NCBI RefSeq assembly: GCF_000975155.1
Contig: NZ_BBRG01000001.1
Span: 186,001-250,000, forward strand
Direction: 5' to 3'
DNA from: Demequina globuliformis
Lineage (GTDB): Bacteria > Actinomycetota > Actinomycetes > Actinomycetales > Demequinaceae
Length of the DNA stretch: 64,000 nt
A model generated the notes under the pieces. It ran no database searches. It was not told the DNA's origin and worked only from the letters and a program-made list of their open reading frames with translations. This document shows positions 10,131 through 39,686 of the stretch, in pieces. Positions within the stretch are counted from its first letter, which is position 1; each line of letters begins with the position of its first letter. A program made the position numbers and the translations under genes.

Positions 10131-10856
10131 CTAGTCGGCGACGACGTCGGGGTCCTCGTAGGGGTTGCCGATGCCGTGGAAGTGCTGCAAGGGCCACACC
10201 GTTGCGAATGCCGTTCCCACGATCGAATCGATCGGCACCGCCCCGCCGCCGGGATTGCCCATGTGCGCTCGAGAGTCAGCGCTGTTGGGGCGATTGTCGC
10301 CCATGACCCAGATGTAGCCGTCCGGCACCGTCGCCGTGAAGTCCGTCAAGGACGGCGCAGTGCCCTCGGGAAGGTACGGCTCATCCAAAGGCTCGCCGTC
10401 GACGGTGATGTTGCCGTCTGCGTCGCAGCAGACCACGGTCTCGCCTGGCAGCCCCACCACCCGCTTGACGAGGTGGGTGCCGGCGTCCTCGGGCAAGAGC
10501 CCGGTGAAGGTGAGAACGTTCTTGCCGGCGCGCTCCCAAGTCGAGTCATCGGCGCCGTCGTCAGGAGGCGCCAGCCAGCCCCCCGGGTCTTTGAAGACCA
10601 CAATGTCTCCGCGACGCAGGTCAAGGGGGTCGGGGCGCCACTTGGTCACGAGGATCCGGTCGTTCTCTTGCAGGGTCGGATCCATCGAGGCGGACGGGAT
10701 CCAGAACGACTGGAAAAAGAAAGTCTTGAGGATGAGCGACAGCGCCAATGCGCACAGCACAATGACGAGGAGTTCCTTGACAAACCCCCACAGACGCCGA
10801 CCGGCGGAGGGCGCAGAGCCCTCCGCCGGTGCTGGCGACGCGTCGCTGATGATCAG
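10131..10856 (-). CDS. lepB: Signal peptidase I, probable CTG start
   Basis: A type I signal peptidase that cleaves signal peptides on the outer face of the membrane. With a CTG start at 10856 it is 241 residues. The membrane helix is about 25-48, the catalytic Ser57 lies in IPSASM, the catalytic Lys131 in VKRVVGLPG, and the box [11 protein letters not shown] follows. The first ATG/GTG/TTG in frame is GTG 10760, which would remove 32 residues and half the membrane helix. No ATG, GTG or TTG exists between it and the rplS stop. CTG 10856 overlaps the rplS TGA as CTGA, the same coupling geometry as the ATGA and GTGA overlaps elsewhere. The enzyme call is firm; the start is inference. Confidence 0.9.
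10801..10829. repeat. 12-bp perfect inverted repeat at the rplS-lepB junction
   Basis: Arms CCGGCGGAGGGC (10801-10812) and GCCCTCCGCCGG (10818-10829) flank a 5-nt loop. It starts 24 bp after the rplS stop and lies inside the proposed lepB 5' coding region, where it encodes an Ala/Pro/Gly linker. No T-run follows. It could attenuate transcription or act as an mRNA processing or stability element between rplS and lepB. Confidence 0.6.
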
Positions 10857-12668: not shown

Positions 12669-13079
12669 ATGTCGAATCCCACCTCCAGGCCAGGATCGGT
12701 GACCTTCGTCGTCGTCCTCGTATGGATCTACGCCATCATGATGCTGATTTCCGGAGGCCTGTGGCTGTGGATGTCTAATGACAGCGCCTTTGTGGGCGAC
12801 GTCGATGTCGATGCGGGCGAGGCGCAAATCTACGGGTGGACCATTCTTGTCATGGGCCTCATCACGCTCCTGACGGCGATTGGACTGGGGCGCGGGTCGC
12901 GGCTCGCCCGGTTCATCGTCAATGCGGTGATGACGCTGCGGATCATCGCGGACGTGCTGGGGCTACTCCTGCTGACCGGCTACCCCCTGTGGCAGGCGGT
13001 CGTATCGATCGCGTGGGCTGCGCTGATTCTGGTTCTGCTGAACAATCGCGCGTCATCGCGCTGGTTCCTCGGCGCATAG
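12669..13079 (+). CDS. Small four-helix membrane protein, unknown function
   Basis: A 136-residue protein with four hydrophobic segments: about 12-35 (VTFVVVLVWIYAIMMLISGGLW), 55-74, 82-102 and 106-123. It resembles the DUF7144-like small membrane proteins of Actinobacteria, but no catalytic motif is visible. AAGGAG precedes the ATG. It is transcribed divergently from rimM, is the only plus-strand gene in the first 26 kb, and ends at a strong bidirectional terminator. Confidence 0.75.
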   Translation: MSNPTSRPGSVTFVVVLVWIYAIMMLISGGLWLWMSNDSAFVGDVDVDAGEAQIYGWTILVMGLITLLTAIGLGRGSRLARFIVNAVMTLRIIADVLGLLLLTGYPLWQAVVSIAWAALILVLLNNRASSRWFLGA

Positions 13080-13091
13080 GAGCCACCAACG

Positions 13092-13129
13092 ACGAAACCC
13101 CCGGCGCCAGGCGGCACCGGGGGTTTCGT
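13092..13129. terminator. Bidirectional intrinsic terminator between the membrane protein and khpA
   Basis: The 13-bp perfect arms ACGAAACCCCCGG (13092-13104) and CCGGGGGTTTCGT (13117-13129) flank a 12-nt loop between two convergent genes. The T-rich ends within the stem would serve both directions. It ends the rpsP-khpA transcript and the small membrane-protein transcript. Confidence 0.85.
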
Positions 13130-13146
13130 ATGTCAGGCAGTGGCTG

Positions 13147-13377
13147 CTAGGCCACGTCCACAATGTTGACGCGAACGTCGTCACGCGCGATGGCGTCGAC
13201 GACGGTCCGCAGCGAGGTGGCGGTGCGGCCGCGTCGGCCAATCACGCGCGGGAGGTCCTCGGGGTGCACCACCACGTTGACGGTGGTGCCGCGACGACCG
13301 GAGCGCTCGGACACCGTGACGTCGTCCGGGTGACGGACGATGCTACGCACCAGGTACTCCACGACGTCGACGACCAC
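13147..13377 (-). CDS. khpA: KH-domain RNA-binding protein KhpA
   Basis: A 76-residue single KH-domain protein (KhpA, UPF0109). The RNA-binding GxxG loop is GRRG at residues 47-50 in PRVIGRRGRTATSLR. The family works with KhpB/Jag in RNA binding, affecting cell size and division in Firmicutes. It follows rpsP with no room for another gene (2-bp gap), the standard actinobacterial order, and probably shares its mRNA. Confidence 0.92.
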   Translation of the reverse strand: MVVDVVEYLVRSIVRHPDDVTVSERSGRRGTTVNVVVHPEDLPRVIGRRGRTATSLRTVVDAIARDDVRVNIVDVA

Positions 13378-13379
13378 GG

Positions 13380-13862
13380 TTACTTCTCCTCAGCCTCAGC
13401 GGCGTCGTCGGCCGCGGGAGCCTCGTCGGCAGCCTCAGCGGCGTCGGCCTCAGCCTTAGCAGCCGCCTCGGCCTCCTTCTTGGCCTTCTCCGCCTCTGCG
13501 GCCTTCTCAGCCTTGAGCTTCTCGGCGGCGTCAGCGGTGGCCTTGATCTGGTCCTCGGGGCTGAGCTTGCCTGCGGGGGTCTCCAGGGTGGACTTCGCGT
13601 CCTTGTCACCCTTGAAGGTGCCCCAGTCGCCGGTCAGTTCGAGCAGCTTGCGAACCTGGTCCGAGGGCTGCGCGCCCACGGAAAGCCAGTACTGCGCGCG
13701 CTCGGAGTCGATCTCGACGAACGAGGGGTTGGACAGCGGGTGGTACTTGCCGATCTCTTCGATCGCGCGACCGTCACGCTTAGCGCGACTGTCGATGACG
13801 ATGACGCGGTAGAAGGGCGCCTTCTTCTTGCCGAAGCGCTTCAGACGAATCTTGACAGCCAT
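13380..13862 (-). CDS. rpsP: 30S ribosomal protein bS16 with long C-terminal tail
   Basis: A 160-residue bS16. The core (residues 1-80: [20 protein letters not shown], then [17 protein letters not shown]) is standard. The last 70-75 residues form a charged Ala/Glu/Lys-rich helix-like tail, roughly doubling the size seen in E. coli; such tails are frequent in Actinobacteria. The start is ATG 13862 with AAGGAG ahead of it; an in-frame ATG 60 nt upstream lies inside the leader and is not conserved. The Shine-Dalgarno lies in one arm of a long hairpin. A TGGCACAATAG element lies 121 bp upstream. Confidence 0.96.
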
Positions 13863-13871
13863 GGCTGTTCT

Positions 13872-13924
13872 CCTTGTGTTTTCGGTGTGAGCCGGTTCAT
13901 CGACCTCGAGGGGAAAACACAAGG
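13872..13924 (-). promoter_or_regulatory. Hairpin sequestering the rpsP Shine-Dalgarno
   Basis: In the rpsP leader CCTTGTGTTTTC (13913-13924 read on the minus strand) is perfectly complementary over 12 bp to GAAAACACAAGG (13872-13883), with a 29-nt loop. The downstream arm contains the AAGG of the AAGGAG Shine-Dalgarno, so a folded mRNA would hide the ribosome-binding site. This resembles translational autoregulation of ribosomal proteins; the ligand is not known. Confidence 0.65.
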
Positions 13925-13982
13925 GCGCGGAACTGGCAAGACGAAAGGCAGGTGAGGATAGAGGGCCACACCAGCCAACGCA

Positions 13983-13993
13983 CTATTGTGCCA
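13983..13993 (-). promoter_or_regulatory. Shared 11-mer TGGCACAATAG before rpsP
   Basis: Identical to the element before rplS. A -10 here would give an rpsP leader of about 115 nt that includes the Shine-Dalgarno hairpin. Confidence 0.35.
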
Positions 13994-14024
13994 GATCAAG
14001 CGCCTGCCGCGAAACCGTCGCGGC

Positions 14025-14654
14025 CTACTCGTGGTCTCCGCCGAAGTCCGGCTGCACGACAGCAGTGACAACGCCGTCCGCGACGACCAGCCACATTCCA
14101 GCGCGCTGATGGTCCGACACGGTCGCGGGGCCTTCGCTTCCCACCTGCGCGGAGGTGACTGGTTCCCAGTCATGCGACTCGAGGTACAGCCTGACGTCCG
14201 GGTCGACGGCGATGTCAACGTCGAGCGATACATCGTTCGACACGACAGCGCCTTGGGCCGCCTCGCCCTCTTCGAGCCCCGCGGCGTACGCCTGCCATTG
14301 ATCGGAGTCAACGCCAAAGACGCAGGCGGCATCCGCGGTGATTGTGTGGGCCTTAGCGTCCGCGCCACCAATGTATGCAAACCACGAGCCGTCCGGCAGC
14401 GTGGTGGATTCTTCTGCGGCGCACCCCGATCCGAGCGAGCCGTCGGCGTTAGCGGGTCCGCTGAGCCGCGCGAGGGAATGCACGGACAGCCGGGTGACGT
14501 CGCGCGCGGCGGGCGTGGCTGACACGACGTTGTCGCGGTCAGCGTGCACACCCGGTGCCGCGGCGATATCCGCGCTCGGTTGGACCGTGCACGAGGTCGA
14601 GAAGATGGCCGCCAACGCGACGACAATCCCTCGACGGAGTGTTCGCGATGCCAT
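14025..14654 (-). CDS. Secreted probable lipoprotein, unknown function
   Basis: A 209-residue protein with a short basic N-terminus, a hydrophobic segment and an imperfect lipobox (FSTSC, Cys22). It is then exported, and two further cysteines (about C79 and C112) may pair. The C-terminal half has beta-strand-like segments (LDVDIAVDPDVRLYLE, MWLVVADGVVTAVVQPDFGG). No family was recognised. GAGGGAG precedes the ATG. It lies 66 bp downstream of apbE in the same direction and could be an accessory of the flavin electron-transfer cassette, but that rests only on position. Confidence 0.65.
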   Translation of the reverse strand: MASRTLRRGIVVALAAIFSTSCTVQPSADIAAAPGVHADRDNVVSATPAARDVTRLSVHSLARLSGPANADGSLGSGCAAEESTTLPDGSWFAYIGGADAKAHTITADAACVFGVDSDQWQAYAAGLEEGEAAQGAVVSNDVSLDVDIAVDPDVRLYLESHDWEPVTSAQVGSEGPATVSDHQRAGMWLVVADGVVTAVVQPDFGGDHE

Positions 14655-14720
14655 CGCACTCCCTCAGGCTTGACTGTGAAAAAACCTAGCGCAGACCACA
14701 CCGGGCGCGCATCTTGCCTG

Positions 14721-20097: not shown

Positions 20098-21867
20098 CTA
20101 CTGTGCCTGGGCGTGCCGTCGCGCGGCATCGGTGAGCTGATCAATCAGGGTGGTGCGCCACGTGGTCCACGCTTTGGGCCCGGCGGCCTTCGCGTCCGCC
20201 TCGGTAAGGGCTCGGAGGGTGTCGAGAAGGTCGACGCGTCCGTTCAGCCGTTCCATGAGGGCCGATGCCGTGACGGGGTCGGCAGGGTCACGCTTGGTCG
20301 CGAACTCGGCGAGAGTGAGGTGCTCGCGCACCAGCAGCGTGACGTCTGCCGTGGTGCCGTCACTCAGGCCTAGGCGCGCCGCGATGGTGGGGATGAGCGC
20401 GGCCCCGTCAGCGGAGTGGTCGGTCGCACCCGGGCGTTTGCCGATGTCGTGAAGCCACGCGGTCAGCAGCAATAAGTCCGGCGTCGGGACCTGGCGCCGC
20501 ATGCGTCCGGCGAGCACGGTCGCCTCGATCATGTGCCGGTCCACGGTGTAGACGTGCACAGGGCTACGTTGCGGCCGGTTGCGGACGCCCTCCCATTCGG
20601 GAACCCAACGCACCGCGAGCCCCTGGAGGTCAATCGCTTCCCACACCGCCGCTAGGTGGGCCGAGCCCCGGAGCAGTTCGCGCAGGTGGTCGCGCGCCTG
20701 CGTGGGCCACGGCTCAGGCAGGTCCGGCGCTTGGTTCAGCGCCTCGAGGAGGCCGGGGGTGAAGACCAGGCCGGTCGAGGCAGCCGTGGCGGCCGCACGC
20801 AAAGGCAACAGGGGGTCGGCCGATGCCTGGGCGTCACTCGCGAGCGCGAGTTCGCCGTCCACGTCGATGAGCCCCTGAGCGACGTGGACGTGGCGCGGAG
20901 CGGCGCCCAAGCGGCGCGCCTTCCATGCCCGCGAGCCGATCCCGGAGCGTTCGAGCGAGCGGCGCGCGCCGCGCTCGGTCGTGTCCACGGCGTAGGCGAC
21001 AGTGCGGCCAGCCTGGGCAAGCGACGCGAGCAAGTCATCCGGATCGGCGATGCCCATCAGGCTCGCGACCTCGTCCGCAAGATGGCGGCCGAGGATGTTG
21101 ACGGGGCGTCCCGACACGAGGTGAATCGCGTCGCGCACGTCACGCAGATGTTCGGCGGCGTCATCCACGGCGCCGTGCGGGCGGTCCGTCAGCCAGGTCG
21201 CCGAGAGCGCGGACAGGCTCGCGTAGTCACGTAAGCCCCCGCGGGCCTCCTTGAGGTGGGGCTCGATGAGATACGCGAGCTCTCCGTGGCGCTCGGCGCG
21301 CGCACGAGAGTTCGCGAGCAGCTCGGGAAGGCGTTTGCGGGCGGCCGATCGCCAGTCTTGGTAGATCGCCGACCGGGCCTGCGTCACCAGCGCTTCGTCA
21401 CCCGCGATGGGCTGCACGTCCAGCAGTCCTGCGGCCGCCGCAAGGTCCTTCGACGCGACCTGCCGGCACTCAGTGATGGATCGCGTGGAGTGATCGAGTT
21501 CGAGGCCCGCGTCCCAAATCGGGTACCACAGGCGTTGCGCGAGAGCCGCGAGGTCATCCTTGCTATGCGTCTTGCCGTCATGCAGCAAGACCAGGTCCAG
21601 GTCGGAGGCGGGCCCCGAATCTCCGCGGCCCAGCGAGCCCACCGCAGCGAGTGCGGCTCCCTCAGACGGGGCATCGGCCCCCTCCCAATGCTCCACCAGG
21701 CGCGCCTTCACCAGGGAGGTCAATGCCTTGCGGCGCTCGGGGCCTGGAACCGCGTCGTCAAACAGTTGCTGCGCCAAGGCGGCCCTGACGCGCTTGAGGT
21801 CCCGCACCCCGTGGGGGTGCGGGACCTCAGCGTCGGAGCCCTCAGCAGTGCTGGGGGTGTTCTCCAT
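20098..21867 (-). CDS. glnD: PII nucleotidyltransferase GlnD lacking ACT domains
   Basis: A 589-residue GlnD, which modifies and demodifies PII according to glutamine. The nucleotidyltransferase motif GSLGRGDSGPASDLDLVLL (about 76-94), the family block PHLKEARGGLRDYASL (about 209-224) and the HD domain (AWLHDIGKRPG and the following HSADGAA, about 470-490) are intact. The protein ends just after the HD domain. The two C-terminal ACT domains that sense glutamine in characterised GlnD proteins are absent, and no room or frame for them exists in the 86 bp before ffh. It follows glnK by 17 bp in the amtB-glnK-glnD unit. Confidence 0.93.
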   Translation of the reverse strand: MENTPSTAEGSDAEVPHPHGVRDLKRVRAALAQQLFDDAVPGPERRKALTSLVKARLVEHWEGADAPSEGAALAAVGSLGRGDSGPASDLDLVLLHDGKTHSKDDLAALAQRLWYPIWDAGLELDHSTRSITECRQVASKDLAAAAGLLDVQPIAGDEALVTQARSAIYQDWRSAARKRLPELLANSRARAERHGELAYLIEPHLKEARGGLRDYASLSALSATWLTDRPHGAVDDAAEHLRDVRDAIHLVSGRPVNILGRHLADEVASLMGIADPDDLLASLAQAGRTVAYAVDTTERGARRSLERSGIGSRAWKARRLGAAPRHVHVAQGLIDVDGELALASDAQASADPLLPLRAAATAASTGLVFTPGLLEALNQAPDLPEPWPTQARDHLRELLRGSAHLAAVWEAIDLQGLAVRWVPEWEGVRNRPQRSPVHVYTVDRHMIEATVLAGRMRRQVPTPDLLLLTAWLHDIGKRPGATDHSADGAALIPTIAARLGLSDGTTADVTLLVREHLTLAEFATKRDPADPVTASALMERLNGRVDLLDTLRALTEADAKAAGPKAWTTWRTTLIDQLTDAARRHAQAQ

Positions 21868-23633: not shown

Positions 23634-23663
23634 AAGGCCCCGGGCAGCGGTGCCCGGGGCCTT
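23634..23663 (-). terminator. Intrinsic terminator after the DUF2510 gene
   Basis: The 13-bp perfect arms AAGGCCCCGGGCA (23634-23646) and TGCCCGGGGCCTT (23651-23663) surround a 4-nt loop, 17 bp past the stop of the gene at 23680. It isolates that gene from amtB. The remaining gap to amtB carries the GlnR site. Confidence 0.85.
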
Positions 23664-39650: not shown

Positions 39651-39686
39651 GTTGAGGCCCCGGCGCGGTGGCACCGGGGCCTCAAC
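39651..39686 (-). terminator. Intrinsic terminator after ileS
   Basis: The 13-bp perfect arms GTTGAGGCCCCGG (39651-39663) and CCGGGGCCTCAAC (39674-39686) enclose a 10-nt loop, 65 bp past the ileS stop. A second imperfect inverted repeat (39699-39712 with 39737-39748) sits between the ileS stop and this hairpin. Confidence 0.85.

Follow-up and report, generated by a model that had tools for sequence, protein, structure and literature searches.

A predicted structured leader conserved upstream of rpsP in Demequinaceae, and a species-private hairpin within it that pairs the Shine-Dalgarno sequence

Results

The 64-kb stretch of Demequina DNA analysed here, referred to throughout as the window, carries rpsP, the gene for ribosomal protein bS16, on its minus strand (13380..13862, ATG 13862-13860; Pfam Ribosomal_S16, PF00886, 6.7e-26). 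The Pfam domain spans residues 9-67 of 160, and the protein has a long Ala/Glu/Lys-rich C-terminal tail (13380-13660, minus strand). Directly 3' of rpsP lies khpA. The gene order rpsP-khpA-rimM-trmD-rplS is interrupted in the window at 12669-13129, leaving rpsP-khpA apart from rimM-trmD-rplS; between khpA and rimM lie a DUF7144 gene on the plus strand (12669-13079) and, at 13092-13129, a strong inverted repeat.

Over the Shine-Dalgarno (SD) sequence of rpsP, AAGGAG (13870..13875, minus strand), the window holds an inverted repeat whose 5' arm CCUUGUGUUUUC (13913..13924, minus strand) and 3' arm GAAAACACAAGG (13872..13883, minus strand) make 12 perfect pairs (13924-13913 with 13883-13872) around a 29-nt loop. 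The original prediction had placed a perfect 12-bp hairpin with this spacing beside the rpsP start and held that the AAGG of the ribosome site is base-paired; arm pairing and minimum free energy (MFE) folds bear out both statements, with all four bases inside the stem and the final A and G of the SD outside it. An 83-nt MFE fold includes the 12-bp stem (−27.6 kcal/mol, z −2.28, equalled by 4 of 200 shuffles), as does a 211-nt fold, for which the z-score is weaker (−1.79, 8 of 200 shuffles). The accompanying remark that the arms are A+T-rich also holds, since they are only 5/12 G+C. Perfect inverted repeats with arms of at least 12 nt and loops of at most 60 nt number six in the 64-kb window, against zero to two in each of 10 first-order Markov sequences of window length, and any such repeat appeared in a fraction of 0.0003 of 20,000 leader-sized Markov sequences. 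One such repeat in 64 kb is therefore unremarkable; that it should fall on the rpsP SD by pure chance is unlikely. None of the other five repeats in the window has a loop longer than 14 nt, and most of them are G+C-rich; perfect, mostly G+C-rich short-loop inverted repeats lie at 10800-10830, 21795-21829, 23634-23663 and 39651-39686.

We compared 47 Demequinaceae rpsP leaders, 44 of them from Demequina, where rpsP was found in all 44 genomes examined, and three from two sister genera. The 12-bp hairpin occurs in one of the 47, the window's own; the 46 others are without it. Aligned arm positions pair at 12/12 in the window, at 9/11 in the sister leader L003 and at no more than 8 in the other 45, some of which are gapped, and the longest unbroken helix covering at least three SD bases (G-U allowed) measures 12 bp in the window and at most 7 elsewhere. 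The original prediction had itself made retention of the pairing in relatives its test, and on that test the hairpin does not hold up.

Predicted openness of the SD was averaged for the 44 genus leaders: L030 has the lowest mean (0.03), followed by the window (0.28), while the sister has 0.71 and all others fall within 0.30-0.93; the window is thus second lowest, yet near the next leader. Taken alone, the AAGG bases of the window have a predicted openness near zero, and in silico none of the four is more than 1.4% unpaired between 10 and 60 °C. The earlier idea of a temperature-sensitive switch thus goes unsupported, and an RNA thermometer was rejected because the SD helix shows no melting up to 60 °C in silico.

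Across the family, a leader of about 115 nt stands before rpsP and is predicted to fold into a helix, P1, two hairpins, P2 and P3, and a pseudoknot. In the window, with all elements on the minus strand, the 5' strand of P1 (13974..13980) pairs with its 3' strand (13931..13937) at six of seven positions, P2 (13952..13971, loop CCCUCUAU) pairs at five of six stem positions, and the P3 strands (13920..13927, 5'; 13901..13908, 3') pair at seven of eight. The P2 loop reads CCCUCU (CCCUCUA). The pseudoknot is of the H type, with AUUCG inside the P1 loop pairing with CGAAU after P3, shortly before the SD, and UCUU joining the pseudoknot to P1. Its strands in the window are UUUCG (13942..13946) and CGAAA (13880..13884), the latter ending 4 nt before the SD and having four of its five bases inside the 3' arm of the 12-bp hairpin; CCUUG is common to P3 and the 12-bp stem. 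Among 46 distinct family rows, the 5' strand of the pseudoknot reads AUUCG in 43, UUUCG in two and ACCCG in one, and the change from AUUCG/CGAAU to UUUCG/CGAAA is found in the window species and its sister. CCCUCU is missing from five of the 44 Demequina leaders (L021, L024, L027, L030 and L042), which keep P1 and the pseudoknot segment, altered in L030.

Sequence variation in these leaders tends to keep the pairs. In the 46 distinct leaders, aligned by fitting to a covariance model, 87.8% of cells pair as opposed to 78.4% in shuffles, and covariation is 0.302 versus 0.170 (sd 0.008), a value that none of 500 shuffles reached; the alignment before model fitting agrees (85.1 versus 77.9% pairing; covariation 0.250 versus 0.156). 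Sliding the partners by one to three columns lowers pairing to 33-41%. Two-sided changes are present in five of six pairs of P2, all eight of P3, two of five in the pseudoknot and two of seven in P1, where the two outer pairs fail in 26 and 17 of the 46 rows. Within the pseudoknot 99.1% of cells pair, and its covariation amounts to about two events, an A-U to U-A swap in the window species and its sister and a U-A to C-G swap in L030, which breaks two of the five pairs. Pair-keeping variation in P1, P2, P3 and the pseudoknot thus supports the predicted leader fold. The original prediction had proposed a covariation check on rpsP leaders; covariation is seen for the conserved leader fold, and the 12-bp pairing is absent from 46 of 47 leaders. 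In the other 46 leaders, the SD could pair with the P3 loop or a near-invariant UCUUG (4-7 bp with G-U); having seen no covariation for such pairing, we set it aside as speculative.

Upstream of the leader fold lies a conserved CTGGCACAAT (13985..13994, minus strand) with a -10-like hexamer, CACAAT, at 13990-13985. All 44 genus leaders carry an element of this CTGGCA type upstream of P1, 43 as CTGGCAnAnT and L024 as TGGCAGAAT, and in the window its end lies 61 nt upstream of the outer hairpin arm. We infer that the element serves as a promoter and that transcription starts near 13978. A scan of 13000-14700 with the sigma-70 consensus returned no promoter. Transcription starting inside the hairpin, which the original prediction had named as a finding against it, is unsupported, with this probable promoter upstream of P1 in all 44. 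No intrinsic terminator was found in 13000-14700 either, and on this ground we rejected a terminator. The conservation might in principle be that of DNA, a promoter with an operator, and not of RNA. The -10-like element is indeed itself conserved, but two-sided changes in P2, P3 and the pseudoknot are unexpected of a DNA site, and we regard this explanation as very improbable.

Covariance model R1, built from 44 of the 47 family genomes with three independent of it, matches 47 of 47 family genomes and all three genera, and its best match ends at the rpsP start in each of the 47. The leader thus has two marks of an r-leader: in 47 of 47 family genomes it immediately precedes the gene of an r-protein, and its predicted structure is backed by covariation. 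Weak second R1 matches away from rpsP were seen at G010:C1:1298348-1298460 (E 1.6e-4) and G028:C4:1373359-1373447 (E 7.5e-4). At E ≤ 0.01, R1 matches 27 of 248 genomes in the order, 19 from the family and eight others. We rejected the eight matches outside the family, none of whose loci has an rpsP start by sequence pattern; a comparable pattern overlooked the start at 11 of 208 other loci.

The P2 hairpin recurs in the order and the class. Outside the family, CCCUCU is found at the leader position before rpsP in 136 of 143 leaders of the order and in 58 of 76 from other orders, compared with 52 of 3690 background windows. With G-U pairs and one mismatch allowed, it is closed by a stem of at least six pairs in 93 of the 136 order leaders (17% with shuffled flanks) and in 27 of the 58 from other orders (18%). 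The motif is missing from seven of the 143 order leaders and 18 of the 76 class leaders; two of the 18 end early at contig ends, and five we take to be from Mycobacteriales. These five (L262, L263, L271, L274 and L277) have segments in common, among them GCAAAACCGG and GAAUUGC, and some offer possible GUCAC/GUGAC and CGCUG/CAGCG pairings. At loci from other classes (L280-L303), several of which gave no rpsP start, the bases upstream of the start, where one was found, often resemble by eye the end of another gene, ffh-like in some, and are without the leader described here.

A second loop, CCCCA or CCCAC, is present in 138 of 143 order leaders and 62 of 76 from other orders, and is closed by at least six pairs in 40 of the 138 and 26 of the 62, versus 11% when shuffled. 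In Demequina, a CCCCA-type second motif occurs in seven of 44 leaders, none with a 5-pair stem; the P3 loop instead has TTCCC in 36 of 44, with at least six pairs in 27 of the 36 versus 15% when shuffled. Because the Demequina P3 loop is of another kind, P2 is the best-shared element, and P3 may be the equivalent of the second C-rich hairpin seen elsewhere. A further model, R2, made with 98 leaders, realigned 79 of them and neither of the two Demequina leaders that it was given. In the 79 R2 leaders, P2 covariation is 0.282 versus 0.164 (sd 0.019), and 59.9% of cells pair versus 50.5% in shuffles. Pairs changed on both sides in this alignment number five, as against 5.1 in shuffles, which is no excess, and a register shifted by one scores almost as well. 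Support for the predicted P2 at class level is weaker than that for the family-level fold.

The same bases of the window leader are claimed by competing folds. In silico, P3 (13927-13920 with 13908-13901, 7/8 pairs) and the pseudoknot (13946-13942 with 13884-13880) are still able to form, and the 12-bp helix overlaps bases of both and excludes each. With the helix, the nested MFE comes to −50.4 kcal/mol; freeing only the SD gives −44.6 kcal/mol, and freeing the SD together with the pseudoknot strands gives −41.8 kcal/mol, pseudoknot energy being uncounted. In MFE folds of growing prefixes, P3 appears first, the UUUCG/CGAAA helix is present in nested form at 108 nt, and the fold switches to the 12-bp helix at 116 nt, once the SD has emerged. 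As an alternative fold, the 12-bp helix is private to the window species and represents either drift or an additional OFF state.

We consider it improbable that the 12-bp hairpin is itself a selected SD-closing switch that responds to bS16 or to temperature. Its 12 perfect pairs lie on the SD, repeats of this kind are rare in leader-sized Markov sequences, the MFE is lowest with the helix formed, and the sister already pairs at 9 of 11 aligned positions, all of which speak for such a switch; however, 46 other family leaders do without the hairpin, the stem stays closed up to 60 °C in silico, and the mean SD openness of the sister is 0.71. A more serious possibility, although we put it somewhat below even, is that the repeat arose in the variable P3 arm by drift or by a templated, quasipalindrome-type mutation, with little regulatory effect. 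The repeat occupies a variable stretch of the leader, where the window is 4 nt longer than its sister in a plain alignment, and the sister shows partial complementarity already; against this, a stem of about −16 kcal/mol on the SD of an r-protein gene should carry a cost unless counteracted.

Discussion

Our analysis indicates that the real finding at this locus is the conserved leader, as predicted from aligned sequences, and that the 12-bp hairpin is a private feature within it. What now speaks for the control element before actinobacterial rpsP that the original prediction proposed is not the 12-bp hairpin on which it was built but another structure of this leader, backed by covariation within the family and by the CCCUCU hairpin found in most order and class leaders examined.

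On balance, we lean towards a reading in which the conserved leader controls rpsP translation, its ligand most likely being free bS16, and in which the 12-bp helix of the window adds a second OFF fold. That control would be translational is our inference from sequence. The ligand would stabilise the core formed by P1, the pseudoknot and P3, and this stabilised core, standing beside the SD, would block loading of the 30S subunit. The 12-bp helix would give the window species a further OFF fold, stronger than the first; either folding kinetics would have to keep the RNA out of it or the initiating ribosome would have to open it.

We place bS16 first among the ligand candidates because rpsP is the constant neighbour of the leader and because rimM-trmD-rplS is parted from it in the window; the separation of rplS favours bS16 over bL19. 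It is possible, though we think it rather doubtful, that the leader responds to something else, be it KhpA, bL19 or an RNA, or only sets the stability of the mRNA. The position of khpA directly after rpsP fits such a role, whereas in the window a gene on the opposite strand stands between rplS and the leader. The comparison with rRNA also bears on the choice of ligand. Some r-leaders, and only some, resemble the rRNA site of their ligand. The conserved segments of the Demequina leader, compared by sequence with the genome's own 16S locus, share words of 6-8 nt with no notable likeness; rRNA mimicry gains no support from this sequence comparison, and the result would suit a ligand other than bS16.

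A broader proposal, which we advance tentatively and with limited confidence, extends regulation by bS16 to much of the actinomycete class. A leader absent from Rfam and answering to bS16 would control rpsP there via hairpins whose loops, CCCUCU and another, are rich in C, joined in Demequinaceae by a pseudoknot beside the SD, and in the window the 12-bp helix competing with P3 and the pseudoknot would form a two-state SD switch.

Rfam 15 gave no leader matches at gathering thresholds, and a permissive scan returned names at chance level. In Escherichia coli, the S15 and S4 leaders use a pseudoknot beside the SD in translation control. The Demequina leader is like them in having a pseudoknot beside the SD, here predicted from sequence, and differs from them in gene and sequence. 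Our literature search, with most subscription papers outside its coverage, found no actinobacterial rpsP leader. Table 1 of an r-leader catalogue lists S16 for Flavobacteria only (PMC7247131). That candidate is likewise a conserved RNA directly upstream of rpsP with S16 as its predicted ligand, but it belongs to a different phylum from Demequina (PMC7247131, Table 1). The same table has r-leader candidates from the phylum of Demequina, those for actinobacterial L31 and L17, but they precede other genes, rpmE and rplQ (PMC7247131). A passage of a 2024 review states that there is no information to date on regulation of the trmD operon, which includes rpsP (PMC10931766), and passages of another paper name rpsP solely among antisense targets (PMC8388888).

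With a structured leader kept before rpsP across the family and a related element in most sampled members of the class, regulation of rpsP and the trmD operon becomes directly testable, and the species-private helix would offer a natural case of a new SD-closing fold arising within a conserved leader.
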